Below are positions 5,225 through 63,724 of a stretch of DNA of 64,000 bases, in pieces. A program made the position numbers and the translations under genes. Within the stretch, counting starts at the first letter, position 1; each line of letters opens with the position of its first letter. The notes under the pieces were generated by a model. That model was not told the DNA's origin and ran no database searches. It saw only the letters and a list, made by a program, of their open reading frames with translations. Source of the stretch: Barnesiella intestinihominis YIT 11860. GTDB taxonomy: Bacteria; Bacteroidota; Bacteroidia; Bacteroidales; Barnesiellaceae. Location of the stretch: the NCBI RefSeq assembly GCF_000296465.1, contig NZ_JH815206.1, forward strand, positions 110,200 to 174,199. The letters run 5' to 3'.

Positions 5225-5483
5225 TTTTTCAATCCGTGGGGCAGGCATAAATTTTATCGATGAATCACTTGTCGACAAACACACTCCGGACTTTTCGGTG
5301 AAAGGTTGATTCTTGCTTAAATTTCTGTACAAAGCGTACTACTCCTCCCCTGCCGTGTCCCGTAGTATTGCGGGGTGTTTCCGTTAGGGAATATAGGGGG
5401 AGTACCCGCAGGGCGAGGAGGTTAAAAAGATTATATAGGGGTAGAAATATAAAAAGACAATCCCCTCTGATTTCCGATTGAAC
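5225..5483. repeat. Composite intergenic element 1 (one hairpin unit with flanks)
   Basis: This lies in the gap between the convergent pldA and acetyltransferase genes. The left end (AATCCGTGGGGCAGGC) and right end (near GATTTCCGATTGAACC, 5466-5483) are imperfect inverted repeats. The left flank, about 5248-5320, is nearly identical to the reverse complement of 40187-40250. The hairpin unit at 5341-5423 contains CCCGTAGTATTGCGGG, TTCCGTTAGGGAA and CCCGCAGGG. The right flank (TATAGGGGTAGAAATAT) recurs at 63674-63690. No gene is supported here. Confidence 0.8.
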
Positions 5484-5566
5484 CGATATCCCCACTAATC
5501 GACAGATCCTCCTTATAGCCTCCGTGCAATAGGGCAACACATCATTCCTAATCGAAACACAATATA

Positions 5567-5611
5567 TTCAAAGAGCGGGGCTTGTACGATTTACAAGCCC
5601 CGCTCTTTGAA
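5567..5611. terminator. Bidirectional hairpin between element 1 and the acetyltransferase gene
   Basis: A perfect 19-20 bp stem (AAAGAGCGGGGCTTGTA and its complement) closes a short loop. Reading plus, it is followed within ten bases by a T-run (CCTTTTTTATAC). It can end transcription from pldA and from the converging acetyltransferase gene. Confidence 0.7.
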
Positions 5612-5653
5612 TACACCTTTTTTATACTCCTCCGAACAAAAGGACTCGAAATT

Positions 5654-6187
5654 TTATCCTTGTTGCATCACGACCTCAGTCAAGTCCGTGCTAAAAATCC
5701 GGTACTCATTTTCTGTTATAGACCGGGGAGATGTAAGCACAACCAACGAATGAGGCGGATAACCCTCCCGATAGGGAGGATGCGTATGGGCAAAAGGGTT
5801 CTCATGGAAGCCGCACTTTCGGTAAAATCTCAAACGAGCTCTCGAAACAGAATCAACGACAGGATCGATTTCCAGCAAAACAATTTTAGAGGTCGAGCGG
5901 AGAAACGCATTCAAAATTTCGCTTCCATACCCCCGTCCTCGTAATCCTTGATGCACTGCGAAATGCTCTATATACCTATAACTGCTAAACTCCCAATAGG
6001 AGATAAATCCGACAAACATATCCCCTTCGCTATACCCTACCAAATGATAATCGGCACACGAGAACGCTTTTTCCTGCTGCTCTTGCGTCCGCTGCTCGAA
6101 GATAGGGAAACTGACAGTATACAATTTCCGCCACGAGTCGTAAAGCTCATGCTGCGAACTATCTATATCTATATAATTCATAGTCAT
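5654..6187 (-). CDS. GNAT family N-acetyltransferase
   Basis: The 177-residue protein has the GNAT acetyl-CoA binding signature. Strand beta4 (YRYIEHFAVHQGLRG) is followed by the pyrophosphate loop RGRGYGSEIL at about residue 85, and then the LLEIDP and FYRKCGF elements of motifs A and B. The substrate cannot be read from sequence; the acceptor could be a small molecule or a protein. The first ATG at 6187 is used; a second in-frame ATG two codons later is equally possible. It is a stand-alone gene, converging on pldA across element 1. Confidence 0.85.
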   Translation of the reverse strand: MTMNYIDIDSSQHELYDSWRKLYTVSFPIFEQRTQEQQEKAFSCADYHLVGYSEGDMFVGFISYWEFSSYRYIEHFAVHQGLRGRGYGSEILNAFLRSTSKIVLLEIDPVVDSVSRARLRFYRKCGFHENPFAHTHPPYREGYPPHSLVVLTSPRSITENEYRIFSTDLTEVVMQQG

Positions 6188-6269
6188 ATAATATTTCCCA
6201 TGAATATCCCATTATCAAGGAATCATATCACCGTGGCAAAACCGGCACATACGATCGCTCGAATCCTCA

Positions 6270-7592
6270 TCATGCCATTCCGAAAGCCTTTTTCACGACT
6301 TCGACATAATCAAGTTTCTCCCAAGTGAACAGCTCTACCTCACGAACGATCGGTTCGGGGTTATAATGCGATTTGAATGTCTTCACGACAGTTTGCGGTT
6401 TTCTTCCCATGTGACCGTAAGCCGCCGTCTCCTCATAAATAGGATTACGTAACTTCAAACGTTCCTCGATAGCTTTCGGACGCATGTCGAAAATCTCGCA
6501 CACCCGTCGGGCTATCTCGGCATCGCTCATCGACACGTGCGATTTACCGTAAGTATTCACATAAACACTCACCGGTTCGGCGACTCCTATGGCGTACGAC
6601 ACCTGCACCAGAATCTCGTCCGACACCCCTGCCGCTACCAAATTCTTGGCAATATGACGAGCGGCGTATGCGGCCGAACGGTCTACCTTCGAGGGATCTT
6701 TTCCCGAAAATGCGCCACCTCCGTGACCACCTTTGCCGCCATACGTGTCGACGATAATCTTGCGACCCGTCAATCCCGTATCCCCGTGAGGCCCGCCGAT
6801 AACGAATTTGCCGGTAGGATTCACTAATAAAATCAACTGGTCGTCGAACAAGGTTCGTACCCGTTCGGGCAGTTGTGCGATAACACGAGGTAACAACACC
6901 TGTTTCACATCGTTGTAAATCGTCTGCAACATCTCCCGGTCGGCCGCTTCCTGAGCCTCTTTCGAGTCGTCGGCCGGAGTCACGAATTCGTCGTGCTGGG
7001 TCGACAATACGATCGTATGCACCCGCACAGGTTCGTTCCGTTCATTATATTCGATGGTTACTTGCGATTTGGAGTCGGGACGCAAATACGAAGTCACCTT
7101 CCCCTTGCGCAGATAGGTCATTGCCGAAGCCTCCCGGCGGATAACGGCCAGCTCGGTAAGCAACAAGTGAGACAAATCGAGCGACAACGGCATATAATTA
7201 TCCGTCTCATTGCAAGCATACCCGAACATCATACCTTGATCTCCCGCCCCCTGACTCATCGCTTCGGCGCGCTCCACGCCCCGATTGATATCGGCCGACT
7301 GCTCGTGTATGGCCGAAAAAATACCGCACGAGTCGGCATCGAACTTATACGAACTTTTATTATATCCGATACGGTGAATCACTCTGCGGGCAACCTCCAT
7401 CAAATCGACATAAGCATTCGATTTAACCTCGCCTGCCAATACGACCTGACCGGTCGTTACAAGGGTCTCGCATGCAACTTTCGAGTTCGGGTCATACGCC
7501 AGAAACTCGTCGAGCAAAGCGTCCGATATCTGGTCGGCCACTTTATCGGGGTGTCCTTCCGACACCGATTCCGAGGTAAACAAATAATTCAT
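6270..7592 (-). CDS. metK: S-adenosylmethionine synthetase
   Basis: The start at 7592 ([21 protein letters not shown]) fits the conserved MetK N-terminus and has GGAGAG just upstream; the frame extends further only into the leader. The 440-residue protein has the ATP and methionine signatures [12 protein letters not shown] (about residue 120) and [21 protein letters not shown] (near residue 290), plus [21 protein letters not shown]. It makes SAM from methionine and ATP for methylation and for QueA and the radical-SAM enzymes encoded nearby. A SAM-II riboswitch lies in its leader, so expression should fall when SAM is abundant. Confidence 0.98.
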
Positions 7593-7680
7593 TGGTTTCT
7601 CTCCTGAATAATAGTGATACATTATTGGAGGAAGAAAGACCGCAATTCCCACGAAAACAAAGGTGATTTGATAAAGCCGG

Positions 7681-7701
7681 ACGGGCTTCGAAAAGCCCCG
7701 T
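7681..7701 (-). promoter_or_regulatory. Hairpin downstream of the SAM-II aptamer in the metK leader
   Basis: On the minus strand this reads ACGGGGCTT, TTCG, AAGCCCGT, a nine-base stem with one bulged G and a stable UUCG-type loop. It follows the aptamer immediately and is a candidate expression platform. There is no T-run, so a classical terminator is not supported. Confidence 0.45.
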
Positions 7702-7757
7702 AACGCAGTTTTAGCATTTTTTTCCGTGGTTGCAAGCAGCCAAATCCTTCCACATTT
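7700..7757 (-). promoter_or_regulatory. SAM-II (SAM_alpha) riboswitch
   Basis: On the minus strand the metK leader carries the conserved SAM-II features in order: a short P1 stem (TGTGG with CCACG), an ATTTGGCTGCTTGCAA loop, an A-rich linker, and ATGCTAAAAC, which supplies the pseudoknot and SAM-contact bases. The order and conserved cores (CTTGCA, CCACG, GCTAAAA) match class II rather than SAM-I. It sits between the promoter at 7765-7772 and the metK ATG, about 100 bases upstream of it. The gene identity supports the ligand. Confidence 0.85.
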
Positions 7758-7764
7758 TCGGCTA

Positions 7765-7772
7765 CAAAGATA
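7765..7772 (-). promoter_or_regulatory. metK promoter -7 box
   Basis: TATCTTTG on the minus strand, with TTTG 20 bases upstream as the -33 element, fits the Bacteroidetes sigma consensus. Transcription from here would start just before the riboswitch. Confidence 0.75.
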
Positions 7773-7920
7773 GTACAAGTCCAAAGCAAAAGCAAATTTA
7801 TTTGCAATTTTGCCGAAAAACAATGTACATAGAATAGAGATGTACCGACAAACGCAAAGTCTCTCTATGTTGTAGGCCTTTCCCCGATCGTATCATATAA
7901 ATAAAACTCTGGGGGCTAAA

Positions 7921-8400
7921 TCACTTTTCGTTCCGTAAACCTTCCAATAGCTCCGTTGCCGTCTTTCCCAATACCGGGTGCACCCATTGCGGAGCTATTT
8001 CGACAAGCGGGGTCATCACGAAAGTCCGCTTGTGCATATACGGGTGAGGCAACACCAGCGAGTGAGTATCCAACACCAAACCGTCATAGTCGAGTAAATC
8101 TATATCGATAAGCCGGTCGACATAACTGCCATCTCTTTCCCGATGCTTTTTACTACCCAATTCCCGCTCGATTTCCTGTACGGTGAATAATACCTCTTCG
8201 GGAGATAAATCGGTATCTACTGAGATAGCAGCGTTACAGAACGTATGCACCGATTGATAGCCCCACGGAGCCGTCTTATAAAACGACGACATGGCAACGA
8301 CAGCTCCCACCCGTTCGCCAATCTTGTCGATGGCTTTTCTCACGATTCGCTCCTTATTCCCCAAATTCGAGCCCAAGCCTAAATATACTCGTTTCCCCAT
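7921..8400 (-). CDS. folK: 2-amino-4-hydroxy-6-hydroxymethyldihydropteridine pyrophosphokinase (HPPK)
   Basis: The 159-residue protein starts MGKRVYLGLGSNLGNKE, the HPPK opening motif. It contains FYKTAPWGYQSVHTFCNAAI and the HPPK signature DRLIDIDLLDYDGLVLDTHSLVLPHP, with the two metal-binding Asp residues in DIDLLDYD. It transfers pyrophosphate from ATP to the pterin in folate synthesis. The gene stands alone, downstream of composite element 2 and upstream of metK on the same strand. Confidence 0.96.
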   Translation of the reverse strand: MGKRVYLGLGSNLGNKERIVRKAIDKIGERVGAVVAMSSFYKTAPWGYQSVHTFCNAAISVDTDLSPEEVLFTVQEIERELGSKKHRERDGSYVDRLIDIDLLDYDGLVLDTHSLVLPHPYMHKRTFVMTPLVEIAPQWVHPVLGKTATELLEGLRNEK

Positions 8401-8483
8401 AGTTTTTACCTCCTTTTTGCGCTACTAAGATAGCAAAAAAGACGTTTTTCGCAAAAAATTTTCCCCTTCTCTCCCCATTATTA

Positions 8484-8765
8484 TGACTCAGTCTATATGA
8501 ATAGAGGGTTACTTTTAAACTTCTCCCTTGCCGTGCCCCGTAGTATTACGGGGTGTAGCGTTAGCAATAGGGGAGGTGGCACGTAGTGAAGGAGGGGTTG
8601 AAAAAACAGCGACAGTAGCAAACCGGACATCAACCTCTCCCTTGCCGTGCCCCGTAGCATTGCGGGGTGTAGCGAAGCAATAGGGGAGAAACCGAAGAAA
8701 CAACCGTTTCTGAGGAGAGGGGTTGAAATATACAAGGACAATCCCCACGAACTATCGACCGAACC
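8484..8765. repeat. Composite intergenic element 2 (two hairpin units)
   Basis: Two tandem units, 8515-8600 and 8631-8727, lie between the DUF456 and folK genes. Each has the pattern CTCCC, TTGCCGTG, palindrome CCCCGTAGTATTACGGGG or CCCCGTAGCATTGCGGGG, ATAGGGGAG, second hairpin, GGGGTTGA. The second hairpins differ: CACGTAGTG in the first and GAAACAACCGTTTC in the second. The right end 8736-8765 (CAATCCCCACGAAC, then CGACCGAACC) is the terminal repeat; the left end near 8484 is degenerate. Small ORFs here are repeat-derived. Confidence 0.8.
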
Positions 8766-8828
8766 ATCATCATACCGCTCGAAAAAAAAATTTTTTCGTC
8801 TTTCTTCTCAGGAAAGAGAGAAAAGAAA

Positions 8829-9305
8829 TCAGAATAGAGCAGAGATGAAGACAACCACGAAATAACCGCAGAGCGATACCTTTAAAATTACTCCTAAGAG
8901 AAATCCTACAAAAGCGCCCAGCCCGGCTTTGAGAGCTTCGTGTGTGAGTTTGCCACCCAACAGTTCACCAATGACGGCTCCCACGAGAGGACCGAAAATA
9001 ATGCCCCATGGAGGGAAGAGGAATATGCCGATGACGGTTCCCGCTATACAGCCCCGGTTCCCCCATTTGCTACCTCCGCTGTATTTCGTGCCGATGAGAG
9101 GTGTGAGGTAATCGAGCACCTGTACAATAATGACCAATATGGCCCAGACGATGAGCTGTGTCGCAGTAAACTGCACCTTGTCGGTGAGATGAAGAAGTAT
9201 CATGCCCACATAAGAGAGCGGAGGACCCGGAAGTGCCGGAAGAAAGCAACCCGCTAACCCGACGAGCAAGCATATCGCTCCTACAATAATCCATATAATA
9301 TCCAT
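8829..9305 (-). CDS. DUF456 domain membrane protein
   Basis: The chosen start at 9305 (MDIIWIIVGAICLLVGLAG) begins directly with a membrane helix. The 158-residue protein has four or five hydrophobic segments and the DUF456 pattern of glycine-rich helices: FLPALPGPPLSYVGM near residue 25, and PPWGIIFGPLVGAVIGELLGG at about residues 100-120. The function of the family is unknown. Two promoter boxes, at 9408-9415 and 9490-9497, read into it, leaving a leader of about 100 bases or more. Confidence 0.85.
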   Translation of the reverse strand: MDIIWIIVGAICLLVGLAGCFLPALPGPPLSYVGMILLHLTDKVQFTATQLIVWAILVIIVQVLDYLTPLIGTKYSGGSKWGNRGCIAGTVIGIFLFPPWGIIFGPLVGAVIGELLGGKLTHEALKAGLGAFVGFLLGVILKVSLCGYFVVVFISALF

Positions 9306-9407
9306 ATCATATCTATATTTTGCACGTTGTGCATGCAGAGTAAAAAGCGAGTCGGATAAAACCAACCTCATTTTTTCGTGCCCAGCCCGACTTATTCTCG
9401 CATATTG

Positions 9408-9497
9408 CAAAGATAGTGAAAGGTGAGCGCAGAGGCAAACGGAAATCTCATTTCAGTTTTGACTATGCCGAGCCGTATCCTATATTCTACAAATATA
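9408..9497 (-). promoter_or_regulatory. Tandem double-promoter cassette upstream of the DUF456 gene
   Basis: Two minus-strand -7 boxes, TATCTTTG (9408-9415) and TATATTTG (9490-9497), lie 82 bases apart. Each is preceded by the same stretch (GTTTGCCTCTGC, then CTTTCAC), which supplies a TTTG -33 box at 20-base spacing. The stretch between them contains CTCGGCATAGTCAA. The cassette recurs at 63822-63905 and, more diverged, at 24522-24609. Confidence 0.7.
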
Positions 9498-9621
9498 GTG
9501 AAAGGTAAGTGCAGAGGCAAACGGAAATTGCATTTTCGATTTGCTTCCTATATTCGTAGTGACAAAGATAATATGAACGAACACAGAAACAAATAAATTT
9601 GGTTATCTCCTTGCCTTGCAC

Positions 9622-9629
9622 TATTTTTG
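9622..9629 (+). promoter_or_regulatory. Promoter -7 box of the GH10-like lipoprotein gene
   Basis: TATTTTTG fits TAnnTTTG; the leader to the ATG at 9654 would be short. A TTG in the box would extend the frame but cannot be both promoter and start, which supports the ATG. Confidence 0.6.
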
Positions 9630-9653
9630 TCTCACAAAACAAAAATCAATACA

Positions 9654-11150
9654 ATGAAACTTAAAATTTATTTATCACTATTATTGTTTTCCTTTTTAAG
9701 CGGAATGGTGTCGCAGGGCGCAGAACACCCGAAACGAGAATTTCGCGGCGCATGGATTCACACGGTAGGTCAGAGTCGCTACATGGAGATGAATCGGGAT
9801 GCGATGCAAGACTATTTCGACCAAATGTTGGATAGTTTGCAGCATATCGGTATCAATGCGGTTATTTTCCAAGTACGCCCGACGGCCGATGCCTTTTATC
9901 GTTCGGAACTTGAACCGTGGAGCAAGTATCTGACCGGGAAGCAAGGCGTGGCTCCCGAACCGTTGTGGGACCCGTTGCAGTATATGATCGAGCAATGTCA
10001 TGCCCGCAACATGGAGTTGCATGCGTGGCTCAACCCTTATCGGGTGGGAACTAATGCCGATGAGCCGCTCGCCGCATCGCACATCTATCATAAACACCCC
10101 GAATGGTTCGTTCGGTATGGCCGACAGCTCTATTTCGATCCGGGGTTACCGGAGTGCCGCCGCTTCATCGGCCGGGTAGTCGACGATATTGTATCGCGAT
10201 ACGATGTAGATGCCATTCACATGGACGACTATTTTTATCCTTATCCGATAGCAGGCAGCGAGTTCCCCGATGAAAACAGTTATGCCCGGTACGGTAACGG
10301 TATGGATCGTGGCGATTGGCGTCGGGAGAATGTCAATGCATTGATTAAGGAACTGCACAAGATTATAAAATCGCGTAAACCGTGGGTGCGATTCGGTATC
10401 AGCCCGTTCGGTATTTACCGGAATCAAAAGAGCGACCCGGACGGCAGTGCGACGAACGGGTTGCAAAACTACGACCAGCTCTATGCCGATGTGTTGCTGT
10501 GGACACGCAACGGTTGGGTCGATTACATGTTACCGCAACTTTATTGGGAGATAGGTCATCAGGCCGCATGTGTCGAGACACTGATTTATTGGTGGAACAA
10601 TCATGCCAACGGACGTCATCTCTACATCGGTCAAGACGTGGCACGTACGATGAATGCTACCGACGTGAATCCCATATACACGCAACTGAACCATAAAATG
10701 CAGTTGAGCCGTTATCTCGACCATGTAGGTGGAAACTGTTTCTGGCCGGGCTATTCCTTGTTGGAAAATTATAAAGGCATAGCCGACGACTTGAAGGGGT
10801 ATTACCATGCGGTTCCCTCCCTTATCCCGGCCTATACGTTTATCGACAGCAAGGCTCCCGACGAGGTGAAGGGTTTGAAGGCAAAATGGACTCCCGAGGG
10901 ATACGAATTGCAGTGGAAAAGAAAGAAAACCAACGATGAGATGCAGAAGCAAATTTATTTCTGTGTCTATCGTTTTGCACCCAGCGAAGACATTTGTTTA
11001 TGTGATGCATCCCATCTCGTAGCCATTACTCGGGACACGAAATTTTTGCTCCCTTATAAACACGGAACCCGTCAGTATGTATATGTAGTGACGGCAGTAG
11101 ACCGTATGCACAACGAAAGTAAGGGTAAGATAAAGAAAGTGAAGTTGTAA
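9654..11150 (+). CDS. Glycoside hydrolase family 10-like secreted protein (DUF187/GHL10)
   Basis: The 498-residue product starts with a signal peptide (MKLKIYLSLLLFSFLSGMVSQG). The TIM-barrel domain has the family hallmarks REFRGAWIHTVG near residue 30, NAVIFQVRPTADAFY, ELHAWLNPYRVGT and DVDAIHMDDYFYPYP; acidic residues in the last block are in the catalytic position. After about residue 400 comes a fibronectin-type-III-like domain (APDEVKGLKAKWTPEGYELQWKR). Family members act on peptidoglycan or glycan chains outside the cytoplasm. The exact substrate is not readable. The gene is monocistronic and converges on pckA. Confidence 0.88.
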   Translation: MKLKIYLSLLLFSFLSGMVSQGAEHPKREFRGAWIHTVGQSRYMEMNRDAMQDYFDQMLDSLQHIGINAVIFQVRPTADAFYRSELEPWSKYLTGKQGVAPEPLWDPLQYMIEQCHARNMELHAWLNPYRVGTNADEPLAASHIYHKHPEWFVRYGRQLYFDPGLPECRRFIGRVVDDIVSRYDVDAIHMDDYFYPYPIAGSEFPDENSYARYGNGMDRGDWRRENVNALIKELHKIIKSRKPWVRFGISPFGIYRNQKSDPDGSATNGLQNYDQLYADVLLWTRNGWVDYMLPQLYWEIGHQAACVETLIYWWNNHANGRHLYIGQDVARTMNATDVNPIYTQLNHKMQLSRYLDHVGGNCFWPGYSLLENYKGIADDLKGYYHAVPSLIPAYTFIDSKAPDEVKGLKAKWTPEGYELQWKRKKTNDEMQKQIYFCVYRFAPSEDICLCDASHLVAITRDTKFLLPYKHGTRQYVYVVTAVDRMHNESKGKIKKVKL

Positions 11151-11280
11151 ACCGGCATCTTCATCGACCGATAAAAGCAGAAAGAAGTACATGGAAAAGT
11201 CAAGCTATATTTAACCTCCTCTGTTTTTACTCCTTCGGTGCTTTGTGTGTATTCTTTCCCTTTTCTCTCCCCTGTACACT

Positions 11281-11466
11281 CTTAACCTCCTCCCTTGCCG
11301 TGTCCCGTAGCATTGCGGGGTGTGGCGTCAGCCATATAGGAAAGGTGTCCGTAGGACGGAGGGGTTAGAAAATACCGGCAACAACAAAAATAACAGGGAG
11401 CAGCAACCTCTCCCTCTGTGTCGCGCAGCGATATAGGGGGAGTGCCCGCAGGGCGAGGGGGTTAAA
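11281..11466. repeat. Hairpin-unit array 3, left part (two units)
   Basis: Unit 11282-11368 has CCCGTAGCATTGCGGG, GGCGTCAGCC and a 3' hairpin GTCCGTAGGAC. Unit 11403-11465 has GTCGCGCAGCGAT and GCCCGCAGGGC. Both end in GGGGTTA. The array continues after the inserted 208-bp element at 11488-11695. This is the gap between the GH10-like gene and pckA. Confidence 0.8.
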
Positions 11467-11487
11467 TTCCCTGTAAAAAAAATCTCA

Positions 11488-11695
11488 AAATCTAAGAAGC
11501 TGTTTTAAATTTATTCCAAGACAGATTGAGACCTATGTTGAAGCTGATTGGAGTCCGAGATAGGCAGTCAATAGCGGGCTATTGACAAAAATCAAGGGGT
11601 TCAAGATGCGAGACAGGGGCTCAATATGGCCGGAACATACCTGCTTGCAATGATAATATTATTTCTCTATAAATTTAAAACAGCTTCTTAGATTT
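11488..11695. mobile_element. 208-bp MITE-like element with perfect 27-bp terminal inverted repeats
   Basis: The ends 11488-11514 and 11669-11695 are exact reverse complements over 27 bases (AAATCTAAGAAGCTGTTTT at the outer left). The interior has no ORF but holds an 18-base palindrome, TCAATAGCGGGCTATTGA. Perfect ends with a non-coding interior are what a non-autonomous transposable element looks like. No transposase is in the window, so the parent insertion sequence is unknown. A target duplication is not clear (A/T-rich flanks). Confidence 0.8.
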
Positions 11696-11892
11696 AACCC
11701 CTCTCCGTAGGATTCACTCCTGCGGCGTCCCCTATCTCCGATTGAAAATCGAAGCAGGGGAGAAGTTGGAAACTACCAACCGACTAACAAAATAGCCCTC
11801 AACAAAATAAGTATAAGCATCTCAACCTTTCCCTTGCCATATCCCATAGCACTATGGTCTGTTTTCCACATGGAAAATATAGAGAAGTAAGG
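11694..11892. repeat. Hairpin-unit array 3, right part (two units)
   Basis: Unit 11694-11775 is in the opposite orientation to the left part. It has stem CCGTAGGA with TCCTGCGG and the hairpin CGATTGAAAATCG. A diverged unit at 11819-11892 keeps the layout but with CCATAGCACTATGG in place of the usual CCCGTAGTATTACGGG, so both arms changed together. No gene is supported between 11893 and the pckA terminator. Confidence 0.65.
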
Positions 11893-12021
11893 AATTCATC
11901 GAAACAGCCCCGTCGATTTTCCAAAAAAAGTTTTATACACTATTATACCCACCTTGTAACACCACGAGACACAGCAGAAGACAATACTTTCATCGTTATT
12001 GAAAATCCACCGGACCATCAC

Positions 12022-12060
12022 AAAAAAACAACAGGCCGCTTCGACGAAGCGGCCTGTTGC
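12022..12060 (-). terminator. Rho-independent terminator of pckA
   Basis: A perfect 15-bp stem (CAACAGGCCGCTTCG with its complement) starts 24 bases after the pckA stop and is followed on the minus strand by TTTTTTT. Confidence 0.92.
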
Positions 12061-12083
12061 GTATAGAGTCAAATCGTGTACGA

Positions 12084-13691
12084 TTACAATTTCGGACCGG
12101 CAGCAACCAAAGCCTTACCGGCGGCATTACCTTCGAATTTAGAGAAGTTCTTGATGAAACGAGCGGCCAAATCCTTAGCTTTAACTTCCCAATCGGCAGC
12201 ATTAGCATAAGTATCGCGAGGATCGAGGATATTTTTGTCCACACCCGGCAACTCAGTAGGAACAACGAAGTCGAAATAAGGAATAACCTTTGTCGGAGCT
12301 TTGTCGATAGAGCCATCGAGAATAGCATCGATAATACCACGAGTATCGCGGATAGAGATACGTTTGCCCGTACCGTTCCAACCGGTGTTCACCAAATAAG
12401 CCTTAGCGCCTACCATTTCCATTTTCTTAACCAGCTCTTCGGCATATTTGGTCGGATGCAACGACAAGAATGCAGCTCCGAAGCAAGCCGAGAAAGTAGG
12501 AGTCGGTTCGGTAATACCGCGTTCTGTTCCGGCCAATTTAGCGGTGAAACCAGACAAGAAATAGTATTTGGTTTGTTCTGCGTTCAAGATAGAAACCGGA
12601 GGAAGAACACCGAATGCATCGGCCGACAAGAAGATTACTTGTTTAGCGTGAGGACCTTTCGATACCGGTTCTACGATATTCTTGATATGATAAATAGGAT
12701 AAGATACACGAGTATTTTCCGTTACGCTCTTATCTGCGAAATCGATCTTTCCGTTGGCATCAACCGTAACGTTTTCGAGAAGAGCGTCACGTGTAATGGC
12801 ATTGTAAATATCGGGTTCGCTTTCTTTATCCAAGTTGATAACTTTGGCATAGCAACCGCCTTCGTAGTTGAACACACCGTCGTTGTCCCAACCGTGTTCG
12901 TCGTCACCGATAAGCAAACGTTTCGGGTCGGTAGACAAAGTAGTTTTTCCCGTTCCGGAAAGACCGAAGAAGATAGCTGTGCTCTTACCTTCTTTATCGG
13001 TGTTGGCCGAGCAGTGCATCGAAGCCATACCTTTCAAAGGATTCAGATAGTTCATGATTGAGAAGATACCTTTCTTCATCTCACCGCCGTACCAAGTATT
13101 CAAGATAACTTGTTCGTTAGTCTTCAAGTTGAAAACGGTAGCGGTTTCAGAGTTCAGACCCAGCTCTTTGTAGTTGTCTACTTTCGCTTTGGCTGCGTTG
13201 AACGACACGAAATCGGGTTCACCGTAGTTAGCCAATTCTTCATCGGTAGGACGGATAAACATGTTCTTCACGAAGTGAGCTTGCCATGCAACCTCCATGA
13301 TGAAACGAACTTTCAAACGAGTAGCGGGGTTAGCGCCGCAGAAAGTATCCATTACGAACAATCTCTTTCCCGAAAGCTCTTTAACGGCTTTGGCTTTCAA
13401 ATCGGCCCAAGCTGCTTCCGAGCAAGGTTTGTTGTCGTTTTTATATTCATCGGTAGTCCACCAGATAGTATCTTTGCTGGCTTCATTCATCACAAAGAAT
13501 TTATCCTTAGGAGAACGACCGGTATAAATACCTGTCATTACATTCACAGCACCGAGTTCAGTCACCTGACCTCTTTCATAACCTTCCAATCCTGCTTTGG
13601 TTTCTTCCTCAAACAGAACTTCGTAAGAAGGATTGTGTAAAATCTCTTTTACATCCTTAATACCATACTTGCTTAAATCTAATGTTGCCAT
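12084..13691 (-). CDS. pckA: Phosphoenolpyruvate carboxykinase (ATP)
   Basis: The 535-residue protein has the ATP-type PEPCK features. The P-loop [26 protein letters not shown] near residue 250 combines the kinase-1a motif with the metal-binding DDE. The oxaloacetate/Mn site region includes [14 protein letters not shown] and [26 protein letters not shown] and [15 protein letters not shown] lie toward the C-terminus. In anaerobic Bacteroidales the enzyme mainly runs toward oxaloacetate, fixing CO2 and making ATP on the route to succinate. It has its own terminator and an upstream inverted repeat that may be an operator. Confidence 0.97.
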
Positions 13692-24498: not shown

Positions 24499-24521
24499 GT
24501 ACTATACTCGTTTAATGGGTA

Positions 24522-24609
24522 CAAAGATAGTGCAAGATGAGAGCAAAAAGAACAAATCCATTTGTTTTTTTGCCGAATCGCAGCCTATATCGGACTTTTG
24601 TCAAAGATA
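24522..24609 (-). promoter_or_regulatory. Tandem double-promoter cassette upstream of argS
   Basis: Two minus-strand TATCTTTG boxes, 24522-24529 and 24602-24609, lie 80 bases apart. Each is preceded by a similar T-rich stretch (TTTGTTCTTTTTGCTCT). GATTCGGCA lies between them, as in the cassettes at 9408-9497 and 63822-63905. Confidence 0.75.
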
Positions 24610-24642: not shown

Positions 24643-25300
24643 GGATTCAGTAGAAAACTCATGAGGGCAGACTTGAATGTTAACAATGAATCCTTTGTCG
24701 GCAACCACATTCCGATCTCCTCGGTAAGTGGTTAAGAAAAGCAGCCAAATAGATTTTTGATGATATTCAACCCCTCCGTCACTTCGTGCCACCTACCCTA
24801 TATTTTACTGGGCAAAACACCCCGTAAGGCTACGGGATACGGCAGGGAGGAGGGAAAATACCCACAAAGCATCGGAGCGGATAAAAGCTGTTCAAGAGGA
24901 TACTTTCAACACTCTCCCTCTGCTCATCGTAGATGAGATAGGGGGAGTGCCCGCAGGGCGAGGGGGTTAAACCTTCAAAATATAACATGCTATTTTCCAA
25001 CCCCTCTCTTCGTCGCTATCGCTCCTCTGTCTCTCCCCTATATTTTGCGCTGCAAAACACAGGGGAGAAGTATTAATGCCTTCAACAACAGGAATAGGGT
25101 AGTGTATCTCCCTCTTACCGTGCTCCGTAGCATTACAGGGCACAGCAGGAGAGGAGGGTGGAAATCTTTCGACAACATCGCTCTGCCGCTGTTTTAATTT
25201 TTCTTTGCTTTGCGGGTATTTCTCCTTCTCCCCTGTGCCGCAAAGCAGTACAATAGGAGAGACACCGAAGAAACGACAGTTTCTGAGGAAAGGGGTTAAG
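24643..25300. repeat. Composite intergenic element 4 (about five hairpin units)
   Basis: The left end 24643-24672 (GATTCAGTAGAAAACTC) matches the terminal repeat of the other elements and abuts the argS promoter cassette. A diverged copy of the conserved flank follows (TTTGTCGGCAACCACATTCC). Units are at about 24767-24856, 24906-24970 (CTCATCGTAGATGAG, GCCCGCAGGGC), 24998-25070, 25107-25163 and 25222-25299 (GAAACGACAGTTTC). No right terminal repeat is recognisable before the gene at 25346. No gene is supported in 24499-25345. Confidence 0.75.
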
Positions 25301-27453: not shown

Positions 27454-27741
27454 TTTAAACTCCTCCCCTTGCCGTGCCCCGTAGCATTGCGGGGTGTGGC
27501 GTTAGCCATATAGGGGAGGTGGCACGTAGTGACGGAGGGGTTGAAATGCGCTATCTCATCAGTCGGTTTATATCAGATATTTAACCCCCTCGCCCTACGG
27601 GCACTCCCCCTATCTCATTCTACGATGAGCAGAGGGAGAGGATTGAAAATGGTATTTCTCGTTTCGGCACAAAGATAGCTTTGTACCCTTCTCCCCTATC
27701 GCATGATACTACGGGACACGGCTGGGGAGATAGGGATTAAA
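27454..27741. repeat. Hairpin-unit array 5 (three units)
   Basis: Unit 27454-27545 is one of the best-preserved: CCCCGTAGCATTGCGGGG, GGCGTTAGCC, then CACGTAGTG, ending GGAGGGGTTGA. Unit 27581-27648 is reversed, with GCCCTACGGGC and CTCATTCTACGATGAG. Unit 27688-27741 has ATGATACTACGGGACACGG. Clear terminal repeats like those of the other elements were not seen. Confidence 0.75.
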
Positions 27742-34424: not shown

Positions 34425-34876
34425 TGCATCGCAATATGGCGATATAAGGAGAATACCCACAAGGCAAGGGGTGGAGGATAAATATCCCATAACCCGACTA
34501 ATGAGATGGCGTTTTCAACCCCTCTGTCCTTCGGACACCTCCCCTATATTTTACTGTGCAAAACACAGGGGAGGAGGTGAATCCCCATAAAGCTCCGAAG
34601 GAGTAAAAACTGTTAATGTGATACTTTCAATCCTCTCCCTCTACTCATCGTAGATGAGATAGGGGGAGTTCCCGCAGGGCGAAGGGGTTGAACTCTACAA
34701 CCAAATGATCTTTTTCAACCCTTCTCCTTAGAAACTATTGTTTCTTCGGTGTCTCCTCTATATGGCTAACATAGTACCCCGTAATACTACGGGACACGGC
34801 AGGGGGAGGAGTTTGAAAATGTATTAAACCTCTCACCCTATATTTCGCTATTGCAAAGCACCGAGGGGGAATTGAA
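34425..34876. repeat. Hairpin-unit array 6 (four clear units)
   Basis: The gap 34333-34878 between the converging acyltransferase and sulfatase genes holds units at 34515-34580 (GTCCTTCGGAC; TTTTACTGTGCAAAACA), 34626-34692 (CTCATCGTAGATGAG; CCCGCAGGG), 34714-34816 (GAAACTATTGTTTC; CCCGTAATACTACGGG) and a short one at 34825-34875. A diverged fragment precedes them near 34432-34482. No gene is supported here. Confidence 0.75.
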
Positions 34877-39815: not shown

Positions 39816-40282
39816 GGCTCAGTAGGAAATCTAAGGGAATTGCCCTTTTGCACAACCATAAAGTGAAAAGCCCGCCCTTCTCCCCCTGCGTTTTGCCATG
39901 TAAAATATAGGCAAAGTGGCACGTAGTGACAGAGGGAGTAATACTACAAAAATACTATATGCCATCTTTCCAACCCCTCTCCTTAGAAACGATAGTTTCT
40001 TCGGTGTCTCCTCTATATGGATAACATAGTACCCCGTAATACTACGGGACACGGCAGGGGAGGAGATTGCAGCCCAATCCGTTCCCCTTGCTGCGTTTTT
40101 TCAACCCCTCCGTCCTTCGGACACCTCCCCTATATTTTGCTGTGCAAAACACAGAGGAGGAGTACACTTTGTATAGAAATTTAAACAAGAATCAACCTTT
40201 CACCGAAAAGTCCGGATTGTGTTTGTCGACAAGAGACTCATCGCTAAAATCCATATCTACCCCACGGATTTTCGGCTGAACC
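39816..40282. repeat. Composite intergenic element 7 (three units, both ends intact)
   Basis: This is the clearest complete copy. The left end 39816-39845 (GGCTCAGTAGGAAATC) and right end 40257-40282 (GGATTTTCGGCTGAACC) are inverted repeats of each other. Units are at 39872-39942 (CACGTAGTG), 39970-40067 (GAAACGATAGTTTC; CCCGTAATACTACGGG) and 40099-40161 (GTCCTTCGGAC; TTTTGCTGTGCAAAACA). The flank at about 40187-40250 is the reverse complement of the left flank of element 1. The element lies between nrdD and the queA terminator. Confidence 0.85.
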
Positions 40283-49228: not shown

Positions 49229-49242
49229 ATCTATTTAGGACC

Positions 49243-49288
49243 CGTAAGTGGAAGCAGCATAACGCTTGCTTCCACTTACGTTTTTTCT
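49243..49288 (+). terminator. Rho-independent terminator of the CoA-transferase gene
   Basis: CGTAAGTGGAAGCAG pairs with CTTGCTTCCACTTACG and is followed by TTTTTT, 15 bases after the stop codon. Confidence 0.92.
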
Positions 49289-49312
49289 ATTCGACCACCT
49301 CTGTACAAATAC

Positions 49313-49561
49313 ATGAAAACACGACTCTCGTATTAAACGACCACGATACAAACAAAGCATATTATCCTCGTTTTATTACTTTCAATACTCCTAACGGCTT
49401 GTCTGCAATGGAAAAAGCAGAAAACCGACATTACCACAGCAAATCAACCGGAAGCCACAGAGTCTGACAACGGCACAATAGTAAGTCAGTGTGAGCAGCC
49501 ACGATTTTTATCGCTAAAATTCTTGTCGATAACCACATTCCAGACTTTTGGGAGAGATTGA
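49313..49561 (+). pseudogene. Broken small lipoprotein with an in-frame stop, truncated by a repeat element
   Basis: Reading from the ATG at 49313 gives MKTRLSY, a TAA stop (49334-49336), then in the same frame a stretch including KHIILVLLLSILLTAC, a good lipoprotein signal with lipobox LLTAC. About 30 polar residues follow (QKTDITTANQPEATESDNG). From about 49500 the frame runs into the flank of composite element 8 and stops at 49561. No alternative ATG precedes the signal sequence, so the gene seems inactivated at the start and cut at the end. A start at a rarer codon cannot be excluded. Confidence 0.4.
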
Positions 49562-50250
49562 TTCTTGCTTAATTAAACCTCCTCCATTGCCGTGTCCCAC
49601 AATACTACGGGACACGGACAGGGGAAGAGATATATATACTACCCTGTTCCTGCTGTTGAAGGCATTCACCCTTCTCCCCTGTGTTTTGCCCAGCAAAATA
49701 TAGGGGAGAGACAGAGGAGCGGTAGCGACGAGGAGAGGGGTTGGAAAGATGGCATATAGTATTTTTGTAGAATTAACCCCTCCGTCACTACGTGACACCT
49801 CCCCTATATTTTGTTTGCCAACAAAACACAGGGGGAGGAATTTTAACTCCCTCTCACCGCATTGTCTTAGCGAATAAGATAGATTGCGTTTACCCTTCGT
49901 ACCCTATTGCATTAGCCAAAAAGTGACGGAGGGGTTGAAAAACACTATTTCGTCAGGCTGTTTGTATCAGATTTTAACCCCCTCACCCTGTGGGCACTCC
50001 CCCTATATTCCTTGCAGGAACACCCCGCAATACTACGGGACACGGCAGGGGGAGAGGGAGATACACCACGCTCCTATTATCGAAAGTGTCCTGAGTTTTG
50101 CCGCAAAACATAAAAGAAGAGGTTTGAAAAACCACACCAATGGTGTCACACTCCCGCCATTCTAAAAGGAGTGTGAAATCCAGCAATGCCGTAAAACACA
50201 ACAAGGAGAAGATTTAAAGGACAAACCCTACTGATTACCCATATTGTCAG
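49490..50250. repeat. Composite intergenic element 8 (four units and a fragment)
   Basis: The left flank at 49508-49572 (TTCTTGTCGATAACCACATTCC, shortened, then TTGATTCTTGCTTAA) matches that of element 1. Units are at 49575-49630, 49669-49745 (TTTTGCCCAGCAAAATA), 49773-49845 (GTCACTACGTGAC), a fragment at 49920-49938, and 49972-50062 (CACCCTGTGGGC; ATACTACGGGACACGG). A diverged right end may lie near 50218-50250. No intact gene is supported in 49562-50301. Confidence 0.72.
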
Positions 50251-50301
50251 TCGTACCGGATAGAAACTTGGAATTGAACGAAACCAAAACACCCATCAAA
50301 T

Positions 50302-50334
50302 AAGAAGGAGGAAGCTGTCCGCTTCCTCCTTCTT
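50302..50334 (-). terminator. Terminator hairpin of the NagB-PIG-L fusion gene
   Basis: AAGAAGGAGGAAGC pairs perfectly with its complement around five bases, 23 bases after the stop codon. The tail on the minus strand is TTATTTG. Confidence 0.75.
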
Positions 50335-50356
50335 CTATACCAAGATAACCGTTAAA

Positions 50357-52339
50357 CTATCGAATGGGGTGATATTCCACAAAAGCCTCTATGGCCTCGT
50401 ACGAAGCCAACCCTAAGCTGGCATAAAGATCGGCCGTAGCTTTGTTGCGGTCTTCGGCACGTTGCCAGAACAGACGTTCGTCATCTCCCAAGAAAGGAGC
50501 ACTCTCCATCTGCGACTGGTGTTTGAGGATAGAGTTACGTTTCTGACGCAATTCCTCGGGGCTAAGAGGAACGGCCATTTCGATATGGTCGATTTCCCAT
50601 TCGGCCCATGCACCACGGTACATCCAGATGCGACAATCTTTCATCCAATCTTCGTCCTTGATTTCGTCGATAGCGGCGAGAACGGCATCGAGACAAACTT
50701 TGTGAGTTCCGTGCGGGTCGGCCAAATCGCCGGCAACGAAAATCTGATGGGGTTTCACCGATTCGATCAAATCTTTTACAATTTGTATATCGGCTTCGGA
50801 GAGATCGCCTTTTTTAATGGTTCCGGTCTCATAGAACGGCAGGTTGAGGAAGTGTACGTTCTGCGGTTTAATACCGATATAGTTACATGCCGTACGTGCC
50901 TCGCCCTGACGAATCATCGTCTTGATGAAACGAATATCGGGCGTATCGGATTCCCCGTCTTTCTTCTTACCGATGAATTTATGTATCTCGTTGCTTTTCT
51001 TCAAAAGCTCGGGAGTATCGAATTTGAATTTCTTGGCAATGTTGTCGATCAGCATGATGTAACGCATCATATCTTCGTCACCCACGGCGATATTACCCGA
51101 AGTTTCGTATGCTACGTGTACATCGTGTTTCTGGTCGGCCAATCGTTTGAGTGTGCCGCCCATCGAAATCACATCGTCATCGGGGTGCGGGCTGAATACG
51201 ATCACTCGTTTGGGATAAGGTTTGGCACGCTCCGGACGGAATGTATCGTCGGCGTTGGGTTTTCCTCCGGGCCAACCGGTAATCGTGTGTTGTAACGAAT
51301 TGAAGATGCGGATATTGACATTATAGGCCGATCCGAAAAGGGCTACCAATTCGCTCAATCCATTGTCGTTGTAATCCTTGTCGGTTAATTTCAAGATGGG
51401 TTTTCCCGTCACCTTGCATAACCAAACGATAGCCCGACGAATGAGCTTCTCGTCCCATTCGCACGACGTTACCAGCCACGGACGACTGATACGCGTCAAA
51501 GCCTCGGCAGCCGACAAATCGAGCACGATTTTCGCCCGACGGTGGGTTTGCAGGAACGAAGAGGGTATCAAATCGGTAATGTCACCTTCGATCGTACGTT
51601 TCACGATGTTGGCCTTATTTTCACCCCAAGCGACACAAACGATACGACGAGCCGACATCAAATTGGATATACCCAACGTAACGGCGCTGCGGGGAACATT
51701 CTCGCTCGAATTGAACTGCGACGATGCCATGTGGCGAGCATCGCTACCGAGCAGCATCAGACGGCAGGAAGAGTTGAGCTGCGAACCCGGTTCGTTAAAT
51801 GCCAGATTTCCGACCGCACCGATCTCGCACAAAGCTAAATCGATACCACCGCAAGCCTCTATTTCTTCTTCGTAATTTTTACAATACTGGTACACATCTT
51901 CTTTCGATACCAACTTACCGGGCGAATGAATATTCTCGGGATCGATATTCACCTTGTCGAGCAACAGCTCTTTCAACAGGCTCATCGTCCCGGGAGCTCC
52001 TTCTGCCAAAGGATAATATTCCCCGATATTGAATACTATGACATTCGAGAAACTGACTTCGCCGGCCTGATACATGCGTACCAATTCGGCATAAACGGCG
52101 TGAGTACCGACACCCGAACCCAAAGCGAGCACACAATGACGATGCTCTGCCTTGCATTTCTGTATCAATTCCGCTACGTCATGAGCTACATACACCGACC
52201 CTTCCTCAGAGCCTTCGAAGATTTTGGTGTAAACTTTCTCGTCTCGTGTAAGAGCCGCAAGTTCCAACTCACCATCAGGAGCATAATACCTTTTGGGTAT
52301 CCGATCCAGTTTAATCTGAGAACTTAGATTTGTTTTCAT
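50357..52339 (-). CDS. Glucosamine-6-phosphate deaminase-like protein fused to a PIG-L deacetylase domain
   Basis: The 660-residue protein joins two domains. Residues about 20-320 form a NagB-like sugar-phosphate isomerase/deaminase domain (VLALGSGVGTHAVYAEL, NIGEYYPLAEGAPG, LALCEIGAVGNLAFNEPGSQLNSSCRLML). From about residue 375 comes an LmbE/PIG-L zinc deacetylase with the signature VIVFSPHPDDDVISMGGTLKRL and the later metal His in DLADPHGTHKVCLDA. The NagB half differs from active NagB at GxGxDGH (here EIGAVGNLAFN), so its catalytic state is uncertain. It diverges from a canonical nagB 180 bases away, suggesting joint control of amino-sugar use. Confidence 0.9.
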   Translation of the reverse strand: MKTNLSSQIKLDRIPKRYYAPDGELELAALTRDEKVYTKIFEGSEEGSVYVAHDVAELIQKCKAEHRHCVLALGSGVGTHAVYAELVRMYQAGEVSFSNVIVFNIGEYYPLAEGAPGTMSLLKELLLDKVNIDPENIHSPGKLVSKEDVYQYCKNYEEEIEACGGIDLALCEIGAVGNLAFNEPGSQLNSSCRLMLLGSDARHMASSQFNSSENVPRSAVTLGISNLMSARRIVCVAWGENKANIVKRTIEGDITDLIPSSFLQTHRRAKIVLDLSAAEALTRISRPWLVTSCEWDEKLIRRAIVWLCKVTGKPILKLTDKDYNDNGLSELVALFGSAYNVNIRIFNSLQHTITGWPGGKPNADDTFRPERAKPYPKRVIVFSPHPDDDVISMGGTLKRLADQKHDVHVAYETSGNIAVGDEDMMRYIMLIDNIAKKFKFDTPELLKKSNEIHKFIGKKKDGESDTPDIRFIKTMIRQGEARTACNYIGIKPQNVHFLNLPFYETGTIKKGDLSEADIQIVKDLIESVKPHQIFVAGDLADPHGTHKVCLDAVLAAIDEIKDEDWMKDCRIWMYRGAWAEWEIDHIEMAVPLSPEELRQKRNSILKHQSQMESAPFLGDDERLFWQRAEDRNKATADLYASLGLASYEAIEAFVEYHPIR

Positions 52340-60232: not shown

Positions 60233-60234
60233 TC

Positions 60235-61859: not shown

Positions 61860-61881
61860 ACCCTTTTTTACCTCAAACCCG

Positions 61882-61925
61882 AACCTCATAATCGTCTTTT
61901 ACCGGAAGGAGGCGCTTATGAGGTT
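61882..61925 (+). terminator. Hairpin between hemD and rnpA
   Basis: AACCTCATAA pairs with TTATGAGGTT around a 24-base loop and is followed by TTATTTTC. The rnpA ATG is 15 bases further, so it may act as attenuator as much as terminator. Confidence 0.55.
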
Positions 61926-61940
61926 TTATTTTCAAAACCG

Positions 61941-62339
61941 ATGAACGACCACAAACTCCCCAAAAACGAAAAGTTGTGTAGCCGAACGGCAATCGACCGA
62001 CTGTTTGCCGAAGGGAGTTCTTTTATCGTCTATCCGATTCGTGTCGTTTATCGCATAGACGACAGCGAAAGCGCTCCGCCACGTTTCTTTATCAATATCC
62101 CCAAACGGAACTTTAAACGCGCCGTCAAACGGGTATATTTGCGTCGCCGGATAAGAGAAGCCTATCGGCTTAACAAGCAGATTCTGACAGAACCGCTATC
62201 GCGGCAAAGCCGAACCGCACATTTAGCCTTTCTTTACCTCGATAAAAACTTGAACGATTTTCATTTTATAGAGAAGAAAGTCGTTGAAATTCTGGAACGT
62301 CTGGCCCGGAAAATAGAATCGCAACAAACCCCGTCCTGA
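61941..62339 (+). CDS. rnpA: Ribonuclease P protein component
   Basis: The 132-residue basic protein begins [28 protein letters not shown] and contains the RnpA core [28 protein letters not shown] at about residues 52-80, with the R-rich RNR-like motif. It supports RNase P RNA in 5' processing of tRNA. As in many bacteria it is followed by yidD, here five bases away. Confidence 0.95.
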
Positions 62340-62343
62340 CGTC

Positions 62344-63207
62344 ATGAAAAAACTGCTATCGGCCATACTCCTGCTTCCTATCCGTTTTTACAAGGCATGT
62401 ATTTCCCCCATGCTACCTCCATCGTGCCGATATGTACCCACCTGTTCGCAATATGCTATCGATGCCATACAGATACATGGCCCGTTAAAAGGTTTGTGGC
62501 TGACCGTCAAACGTATCCTGAGCTGTCACCCGTGGGGTGGTAGCGGTTACGATCCCGTCCCGATTAAAACGCCGACCGATATTCACACGCACCACGACCA
62601 CTACGGAGCCATCATTAGCACGACCCCCGAAGAGTTCCACCCCGAACCGGGAAAGTTCTACTCCGTCGGGATGCACCCGTGGAGCCTGACCTCCCGCTCC
62701 AAAGAAACATTCCCTCTGCTGGAAACGATCGTACGAAACGAGCAAGTCGTGGCGATCGGCGAGACGGGACTCGACAGACTCAAAAGCGGAGTCGGCTATG
62801 AAGAACAATCGGAATACTTCAAACATCACATATATCTCTCTGAAAAGTGGCACAAGCCACTCGTCATACACGCCGTCAAAGCATACGACGACATAATCCG
62901 CATCCATAAAGCAGAAAAACCTAAACAACCGTGGATTATACACGGATTCAGAGGGAAACCCGAAACCGCAGGGCAGCTGATTCGAGAAGGGCTATATCTC
63001 TCCTTCGGAGAATATTACAACCACGAATCTTTGAAATCCGTACCACTCGACCGCCTGTTTTTAGAAACAGACGAGGGCAACATGCCTATCGATAAACTAT
63101 ATAGGAAAGCGGCACGCATACGTAATCTCTCGACTCACCGATTACGCAAATCGATAAAGGAAAACATCTCGCGAATCTTTACGTTTTCCCCGCAATCCCG
63201 ACAATAA
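62344..63207 (+). CDS. YidD-TatD fusion protein
   Basis: The 287-residue product joins two families usually encoded separately. Residues 1-74 are YidD, the membrane-insertion efficiency factor ([31 protein letters not shown], ending [10 protein letters not shown]). Directly after, at residue 80, a short TatD-type metal hydrolase begins (DIHTHHDH), with [29 protein letters not shown] and LETDEGN supplying metal ligands. In related genomes yidD ends at the DPVP position and tatD starts anew. No stop lies between the halves here. Loss of the yidD stop codon, or an assembly error, is the simplest origin. Confidence 0.9.
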
Positions 63208-63269
63208 GACTAAACTACTATTCCCTCCTGCTTATCATTCGCTTGTATTACCGACTCGACTCACATCAC

Positions 63270-63724
63270 GATTCAGTAGAAAATCCGTGGGGATAGCCCT
63301 GAATTTTAGCGAATGAGATGGATTATATATCTCCTCCTCTGGTGTGGCGTTAGCCATATAGGGGAAGTGGCACATAGTGACGGAGGGGTTAAACAATACA
63401 ACAATCGAACAATCTTTCTAACCCCTCTCCTCAGAAACTACCGTTCCTTCGGTCTCTCCCCTATATTTTGCACTGCAAAACACAGGGGAGAAAGAGCAAT
63501 ACCAACAGCAGTAACAAAATTAAGTCCCCCCTCTCTCCCTGCCATGCCCCGTAGTATTACAGGGAGTTGCAAAACAACATAGGGAGAAAAGGCTACTTTT
63601 CAATCCTCTCCCCCTGTGTTTCCGAAGAAATATAGGGGGAGTGCCCGTAGGGCGAGGGGGGTTAAAAAGATTATATAGGGGTAGAAATATAAAAAGACAG
63701 TCCTCACTAATTATCTACTGAGCC
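63270..63724. repeat. Composite intergenic element 9 (four units, both ends intact)
   Basis: The left end 63270-63299 (GATTCAGTAGAAAATC, then CGTGGGGATAG) and right end 63696-63724 (TATCTACTGAGCC) are inverted repeats. Units are at 63330-63391 (GGCGTTAGCC; CACATAGTG), 63418-63494, 63530-63589 (CCCCGTAGTATTACAGGG) and 63599-63664 (TGTTTCCGAAGAAATA; GCCCGTAGGGC). The tail TATAGGGGTAGAAATAT is shared with element 1. Small ORFs here are repeat-derived. Confidence 0.85.

Follow-up and report, generated by a model that had tools for sequence, protein, structure and literature searches.

The question raised by this locus is what kind of element the hairpin modules that recur between its genes are, and why their stems stay paired while the sequence varies. 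The modules, here called units, lie in a 64,000-nt stretch of contig NZ_JH815206.1 (the window) of Barnesiella intestinihominis YIT 11860, the home genome (G000; 3.44 Mb, 5 contigs). We conclude that they are probably non-autonomous, recombinogenic interspersed DNA repeats, akin to bacterial interspersed mosaic elements (BIMEs) and miniature inverted-repeat transposable elements (MITEs), and preserved in a form that can fold as a single strand. It is through RAYTs, the tyrosine transposases associated with repetitive extragenic palindromes (REPs), that structured interspersed repeats are best understood. Here, hundreds of copies, covariation in three arms and cassette-linked recombination go together with the absence of a RAYT from two unit-rich genomes, which makes the questions of the mobiliser and of genome reshaping testable. 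Covariation alone is not evidence of RNA.

Curation of the window by eye gave 26 units across nine gaps, close to the about 30 units in nine gaps of the original prediction. They are non-coding and about 60-95 nt long. The hairpins quoted earlier were found again: hairpin B as CAC/GTG near 8577-8585, as TCC/GGA at 11346, as CCC/GGG at 11443, as TCC/GGA with a GAA loop at 34525 (canonical strand minus) and as CCC/GGG with an ACA loop at 49985 (minus strand), and hairpin A with the tips CCCGTAGTATTACGGG, CCATAGCACTATGG and CTCATCGTAGATGAG. A covariance model built from nine short window units (R1) has 28 matches in the window at E<=1, of which three (34535+, 49674- and 63594-) lie antisense to other units; three curated units (11824, 25222 and 34717) have no match at this threshold. 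With at most one mismatch, the 5' motif occurs 13 times in the window against 3.55 expected, and none of 100 shuffles reached 13. In the whole home genome, all 150 candidates scored with R1, out of 809 first-look candidates, match at E<=0.1. A hidden Markov model run on the window and on 73 stretches fetched around R1 matches counts 205 non-overlapping units in 98 clusters; cmsearch of the same sequences returns 247 matches at E<=0.05, some of which are antisense doubles.

On its canonical strand the unit has an outer stem, AACCTC / GAGGGGTT, whose arms enclose two hairpins. Hairpin A has a long stem (CTCCCCTGTG / ATATAGGGGAG) and a variable tip, which is TTTTGC..GCAAAA, TTCC..GGAA, CTCATC..GATGAG, GGC..GCC or a longer form with an extra CCCGTAGTATTACGGG-type hairpin. 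Hairpin B is short in types 1 and 3 and long in type 2, and its loop is exactly C-GNA-G in 105 of the 144 distinct home units. GNA loops are unusually stable in DNA, which we take as a lead only. Eight window units were folded on their canonical strand, and all reach z scores between -2.5 and -7.3; the complementary strands of four window units fold at z -1.1 to -5.2. Among the 144 home sequences the canonical strand is the better folder in 141 with RNA parameters and in 138 with DNA parameters. Cells with G.T outnumber those with A.C by 650 to 117 in the home units; because five fixed wobble columns produce this excess, it was not used as a substitution test. Folding is thus specific to one strand, but the spectrum of substitutions does not settle whether RNA or DNA is what folds.

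Covariation was analyzed in two alignments. A2 holds 144 distinct home sequences from the best 150 of the 247 matches. A4 holds sequences of two congeners (G002 and G004) and of the goat-colon metagenome-assembled genome (MAG) RGIG2076, none of which had been used to build R1. Both were fitted to the R1 structure, a bias in favour of that structure. In A2, 90.2% of cells are paired and 13 of 25 pairs show two-sided changes (a level that none of 500 shuffles reaches; pairing in slid controls does not exceed 67.1%), and in A4 92.5% of cells are paired, with two-sided changes in 18 of 25 pairs. Plain shuffles ignore relatedness, and therefore we also ran an R-scape-like, tree-preserving null of our own, in which Fitch substitutions on a FastTree tree are given reassigned columns. 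With 20 such nulls, four of the 25 pairs in A2 covary at E<0.05 and none of 2055 others; with 100 nulls and three seeds there are again four of 25, and one of the 2055 others, the neighbouring columns 9/10. A4 gives seven of 24 pairs at E<0.05 and none of 1746 others, and the seven cover all three helices: 9/164 in the outer stem, 10/99, 11/98, 25/87, 26/86 and 27/85 in hairpin A, and 103/159 in hairpin B. The covarying stems proposed from the window therefore stand above background both at home and in independent genomes. The same test speaks about the form of the fold. Since 9/164 and the adjacent 10/99 and 11/98 covary as separate pairs in A4, the three helices can coexist, which supports one three-way junction of outer stem, hairpin A and hairpin B rather than the two mutually exclusive folds that had been suggested; competing registers exist, and nothing shows a switch between them.

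Matching arms do not have to result from selection. Template switching in a hairpin could copy one arm onto the other, and at one locus a tip indeed differs yet stays paired between strains with 98-99% identical flanks. However, such copying would perfect the TGTG/ATATA wobbles, and one wobble is kept in 136 of 144 home and in 122 of 131 other-genome sequences. In addition, the outer stem, which encloses both hairpins, also covaries (9/164). We therefore regard a purely mutational origin of the pairing as improbable.

The units might also act as RNA, either as cis elements of 3' regions or as small structured RNAs, so that selection on the transcript keeps the covariation. The wobble pair conserved on the canonical strand fits this, as do RNA folding z scores down to -7.3 and the better folding of one strand. 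The gene context does not. Convergent gaps make up 35 of 90 gaps with units and 18 of 109 without (gaps >30 bp; Fisher p 0.0006). The orientation of the units is without sense bias: convergent gaps hold 30 units on the plus and 31 on the minus strand, and in codirectional gaps 45 of 72 are antisense. These counts exclude 31 of 191 home units that lie inside naive open reading frames (ORFs) of at least 100 aa, which in our view are spurious frames over the repeats. At 5566-5612, 12028-12060 and 49243-49280 a strong terminator separates the gene from the island, and scans of 5000-12200 and 49100-50500 for a stem with a T run detected no terminator-like site inside any unit. Termination, one of the functions initially considered, is thus not supported in these two stretches, where the units lie beyond the gene terminators. 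Units are furthermore absent at orthologous positions of the congeners tested. Searches of Rfam, with the gathering score as cutoff for the window and with E<=0.5 for four loci (L188, L199, L098 and L218), matched no unit, in agreement with the initial impression that no described family is involved, and the parts of the open-licence PMC literature covered by our search contain no description of the unit family. Taken together, a function as RNA seems rather unlikely to us.

Part of the home clusters lie between ends of another kind. A 25-bp terminal end is found in 30 copies in G000 with at most three mismatches (reversed-pattern control 0). Its two types, L and R, point inward across units, and a single L end (L139) is situated inside a cluster. 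At least one end lies within 450 bp of 48 of the 98 home clusters, 18 have both ends and 50 have none. The 18 two-ended elements span 266-1062 bp, and their longest stop-to-stop frame has 181 codons. Flanking 8-mers match at seven or more positions, with shifts of at most two, in four of these 18 elements, compared with 0.33% of the 306 mismatched pairings that served as control; at a fixed offset they match at six or more positions in three of 18 against 0.65% of controls. The duplications are thus decayed in most elements. A further element, L026, contains a unit and is bordered on either side by the identical 8-mer ATAATAAC, as seen by eye. Island 63270-63724 of the window is flanked by CACATCAC (63262-63269) and CACATACC (63725-63732), a 6/8 match. 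No parent transposon was noticed at the 30 terminal-repeat loci, which were read without a systematic ORF search; relatives were not searched for one, and Y1 was the only transposase family searched.

Of the marks of a MITE, terminal inverted repeats belong to the home L-R elements only and not to the units or to G002 and G004. Target-site duplications belong to the L-R elements as a set and are shown for no single unit, and the 18 two-ended elements agree with a size of about 50-1000 bp without transposase. It could be argued that the units are only the decayed interior of one such inverted-repeat family, as the 48 clusters with an end nearby would suggest. However, the other 50 home clusters and all 28 stretches from G002 and G004 have units without L or R ends, and the 113-bp element L010 has L and R-like ends and no unit. 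This makes a mere MITE interior very improbable. The MITE-like element of G000 carries part of the units, and the units are not parts of that element alone. The same observations speak against the case, raised with the original prediction, of one transposon end with ordinary decay, because many home units lie between separate inverted-repeat ends, while those in 50 of the 98 home clusters and in the 28 stretches of two other species lack such ends.

Exchange between units is seen when locus L178 of G002 is compared with locus L198 of G004. Two blocks correspond, 42-1853 to 6701-4889 at 87% and 1818-3501 to 1728-40 at 91%, and are separated in G004 by 3161 bp, which carry two genes, one of them LRR_5 (BspA-type) and the other of 142 aa and with no Pfam match. 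This cassette is bracketed by two units, and at the junction G002 has one chimeric unit, which combines the type-2 3' half and tip of the left G004 unit with the type-1 5' arm of the right one; the switch point lies at AACACAG/GGAG of hairpin A. Loss of the cassette in G002 is the simpler reading. A contig from a viral collection (L218) shares with home locus L140 the same R end and flanks that are 98-99% identical, and holds one long unit with a different hairpin tip where the home locus holds an array. LRR_5 genes are found at 10 loci in G002 and six in G004. R1 units accompany four of nine fetched loci in G002 and one of six in G004, numbers for which misses are not firm (the loci reach 1500 bases from the domain) and G002 has no base rate. 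A further LRR_5 gene of G002, at about 17.7 kb of contig C2, is flanked by units on either side according to the L180 coordinates. A link with recombination, which had been among the initial suggestions, is supported in part, by the chimeric unit with its cassette presence and absence and by the array and tip differences.

REPs and BIMEs with RAYTs are described as extragenic hairpins of high copy number with alternating types, preserved pairing and strain-variable arrays (PMC2817692, PMC3733652). The units are like them in all these respects. Their copies number more than 100 and are extragenic, and neighbouring types 1 and 2, which were called with ad hoc patterns, are mutually inverted in 34 of 35 pairs in the G002 and G004 stretches, and in only 10 of 16 at home. 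It might therefore be that the units are ordinary REPs or BIMEs moved by a RAYT, a Y1 tyrosine transposase. In contrast to the 20-40 bp REP palindrome, the units form a larger three-way junction. RAYT-mobilised REPs have a GTAG (or CGTC) tetranucleotide at one palindrome end (PMC3733652). No such tag stands at the ends of the curated units, which start like AACCTCTCC, AAACTCC or ACTTCTCC and finish with variants of GAGGGGTT. The transposase domain Y1_Tnp (PF01797) occurs in one of nine genomes of the genus, the home genome (L009 1501-1836; G000 C1:236191), in a run of long open frames and with no unit in the surrounding 3336 bases, and it is absent from the unit-rich G002 and G004. After this search of home genome and genus we rejected an identity with RAYT-moved REPs, which is hardly credible.

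Integron attC sites are folded single-strand recombination sites that flank gene cassettes, with AAC..GTT ends, and in these features the units resemble them. Unlike in attC sites, the one crossover seen here lies inside hairpin A and not at a terminal box. Porphyromonas gingivalis, which belongs to the same order as the home bacterium, harbors a MITE that invites comparison. The repeat of this element, BrickBuilt, is a 23-nt tandem minisatellite, and its ends are like those of the IS5-family elements ISPg1 and ISPg9 (PMC4596501). The common features are an inverted-repeat element, internal repeats and strain differences in repeat number; unlike in BrickBuilt, the interior here consists of structured units in both orientations that are also found without ends.

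According to the reading as foldable DNA repeats, units would accumulate between genes as non-autonomous repeats in several types. Some home clusters are carried by an element of another kind, which has terminal inverted repeats and 8-bp target duplications, now decayed. Unit-to-unit recombination inside hairpin A would make chimeras and could delete or invert the DNA in between. The fold might be kept because a trans-acting enzyme recognizes a single DNA strand during mobilisation, and not for a function as RNA. A bolder version, which we put forward tentatively and hold to be unlikely, is that a dedicated system for recombination or mobilisation acts directly on the folded strand of these RAYT-independent repeats, and that the repeats bracket and exchange accessory gene cassettes (BspA-type LRR proteins, the orphan family described below) like a dispersed integron of gut Bacteroidales.

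Several points weigh against the reading as mobile, foldable DNA. No mobilising enzyme is identified. Once the five fixed wobble columns are removed, 60 GT cells stand against 114 AC cells and the strand asymmetry is gone, and the conserved wobble pairs suit RNA at least as well as DNA. Among the matches listed from a flank-joining search (at most 45 of 225), all are unit-to-unit or recombination-like, and none shows a unit inserted on its own between clean target duplications. Fourteen of the 18 two-ended elements are without a 7/8 duplication. The direction of the cassette event comes from parsimony, and at home the tendency of types 1 and 2 to be inverted to each other is weak. Finally, unit orientation at home is biased with respect to the replication strand (p 1.4e-5 by unit, 0.014-0.02 by locus and 0.24 by 50-kb bin), and the bias has the opposite sign in G002 and G004 (by unit p 0.005 and 0.018, by locus p 0.06 and 0.12), with short as well as with 16-20-kb stretches; suggestive at home, such a bias is not claimed. 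Between 930 and 975 kb of contig C1 of G000, units are almost all on the minus strand, compared with a plus majority upstream, and the local GC skew is near zero; this is possibly a recent inversion.

The distribution of the units is patchy. R1 was run at E<=1e-6 and with stricter filters on 60 genomes, nine of the same genus (home included) and 51 of other families. Three genomes, all of one genus, have units: G000, G002 (88/89 scored) and G004 (26/89 scored). The other 57, six congeners and the 51 genomes of other families, have no match at this threshold. RGIG2076, too, has the core of the units in five stretches, as detected with a 31-base pattern that leaves two positions free, so that the search of other genomes, suggested at the outset, yields two congeners and a goat-gut MAG. 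The ribonucleotide-reductase protein of RGIG2076, which aligns to the NRDD (anaerobic ribonucleotide reductase) gene of the window, is 83% identical to that of G029, a genome of another family of the same order, and 78% to that of G000; because it is closer to G029, we place the MAG outside the genus, in another genus and probably another family, as judged from this protein. In viral contigs, two unit-core patterns gave no locus and one gave a single locus.

Orthologous sites are in line with a lineage-specific presence. At the PEPCK locus R1 units occur in G000 and in none of eight congeners, which by reading have a terminator and then a DUF456-like stretch in convergent order. The PEPCK-DUF456 junction is broken in G000, with island 11151-12083 at the 3' end of PEPCK and island 8401-8828 at the 3' end of DUF456, and an inversion between the two islands may have caused this. 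Between HSP20 and MFS, units occur in G002 and G004 and in none of seven others, although for one of these, G006, the stretch stops short of an MFS gene; G000 has a different inverted-repeat element of roughly 190 bp there. A sulfatase flank was dropped as orthologue anchor, as it matched in one of nine genomes at E<=1e-100. The roughly 190-bp element, with inverted ends AAGAAGCTGTTTTAAATTTAT / ATAAATTTAAAACAGCTTCTT, lies at 11493-11690 of the window and has its copy between HSP20 and MFS in G000 (L250). Stretches about 96% identical to it are found in the phage-labelled faecal record MT836387.1 (L219).

One gene next to the window units encodes a member of an orphan protein family with the motif IExxRxxxLxxYYxxLLELDP.....CIxxLER. 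The family has 12 matches at 11 loci, in G000 only among nine genomes, and units lie within 1.25 kb of the gene at 10 of the 11. Six of the loci were first seen while viewing islands; the other five came to light afterwards, and four of these have units, against a placement expectation of 9% (p 0.0003, for paralogues that are not fully independent). There is no convincing match in Pfam (two members scanned), NCBIfam or PHROGs, the best PHROGs match (E 0.006) being to a family of unknown function, and one member has no match in plasmids. The family occurs in one viral-collection contig, and another member matches two unannotated faecal phage-labelled records. A single-sequence structure, all helical with a mean pLDDT of 55, was not used.

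Table 1. Units, terminal inverted repeats and orphan gene in the window (R1, covariance model; type pattern, type called with an ad hoc pattern; z, folding z score).
Feature	Position	Strand	Basis
Unit, long tip, CCC/GGG hairpin B, type 3	5337..5423	+	curation, R1, type pattern
Unit, long tip, CAC/GTG hairpin B, type 1	8516..8600	+	curation, R1, type pattern
Unit, long tip, long hairpin B, type 2	8632..8726	+	curation, type pattern; weak R1 match (14.2 bits)
Unit, long tip, TCC/GGA hairpin B	11284..11367	+	curation, R1
Unit, short, type 3, clear three-way junction	11405..11464	+	curation, R1; z -3.7
Unit, diverged	11697..11768	-	curation, R1 (20.7 bits)
Unit, decayed, without 3' end	11824..11899	+	curation only; no R1 match at E<=1
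Unit, type 1	24769..24852	-	curation, R1, type pattern
Unit, type 3, CTCATC/GATGAG tip	24908..24969	+	curation, R1, type pattern
Unit, type 2	24999..25071	-	curation, R1, type pattern
Unit, type 2	25222..25299	+	curation, type pattern; no R1 match at E<=1
Unit, long tip, type 1	27456..27543	+	curation, R1, fold, type pattern
Unit, type 3	27583..27644	-	curation, R1, fold, type pattern
Unit, TCC/GGA hairpin B with GAA loop	34517..34577	-	curation, R1; z -6.5
Unit, type 3, CTCATC tip	34629..34690	+	curation, R1, type pattern
Unit, long, type 2	34717..34813	-	curation, type pattern; no R1 match at E<=1
Unit, decayed	34827..34874	-	curation; R1 E 0.17
Unit, CAC/GTG hairpin B, decayed	39874..39944	+	curation, R1
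Unit, long, type 2	39972..40067	-	curation, type pattern; R1 E 0.33
Unit, TCC/GGA hairpin B	40103..40164	-	curation, R1
Unit, type 2	49666..49743	+	curation, R1, type pattern
Unit, type 1	49775..49842	-	curation, R1; z -5.9
Unit, long tip, type 3, ACA loop	49976..50058	-	curation, R1, type pattern
Unit, CAC/GTG hairpin B	63328..63391	+	curation, R1
Unit, type 2	63420..63492	-	curation, R1; z -7.3
Unit, type 3	63602..63664	+	curation, R1, fold, type pattern
L end, partial, island about 5219-5484 (no matching flank 8-mers)	5231..5277	+	
R end, island about 5219-5484	5440..5484	-	
R end, island 8401-8828	8721..8765	-	
L end, island 24499-25345	24644..24703	+	
R end, island 39816-40282 (no matching flank 8-mers)	39816..39849	+	
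L end, island 39816-40282	40224..40282	-	
Left terminal inverted repeat (L end), island 63270-63724	63270..63294	+	
Right terminal inverted repeat (R end), island 63270-63724	63700..63724	-	
Orphan gene, 204 aa	25349..25960	-	family search, unit proximity

Some further features were observed in passing. Islands of G002 (for example L183, L185, L186 and L188) have an embedded repeat of roughly 190 nt with the hairpin GTTCATTCTTCTC..GAGAAGAATGAAC at one end, and a similar hairpin precedes genes of the orphan family in G000 (L101 and L134). The window also holds two riboswitches on the minus strand, a SAM-II riboswitch at 7701-7759 and a cobalamin riboswitch at 39371-39578 that adjoins the NRDD gene.

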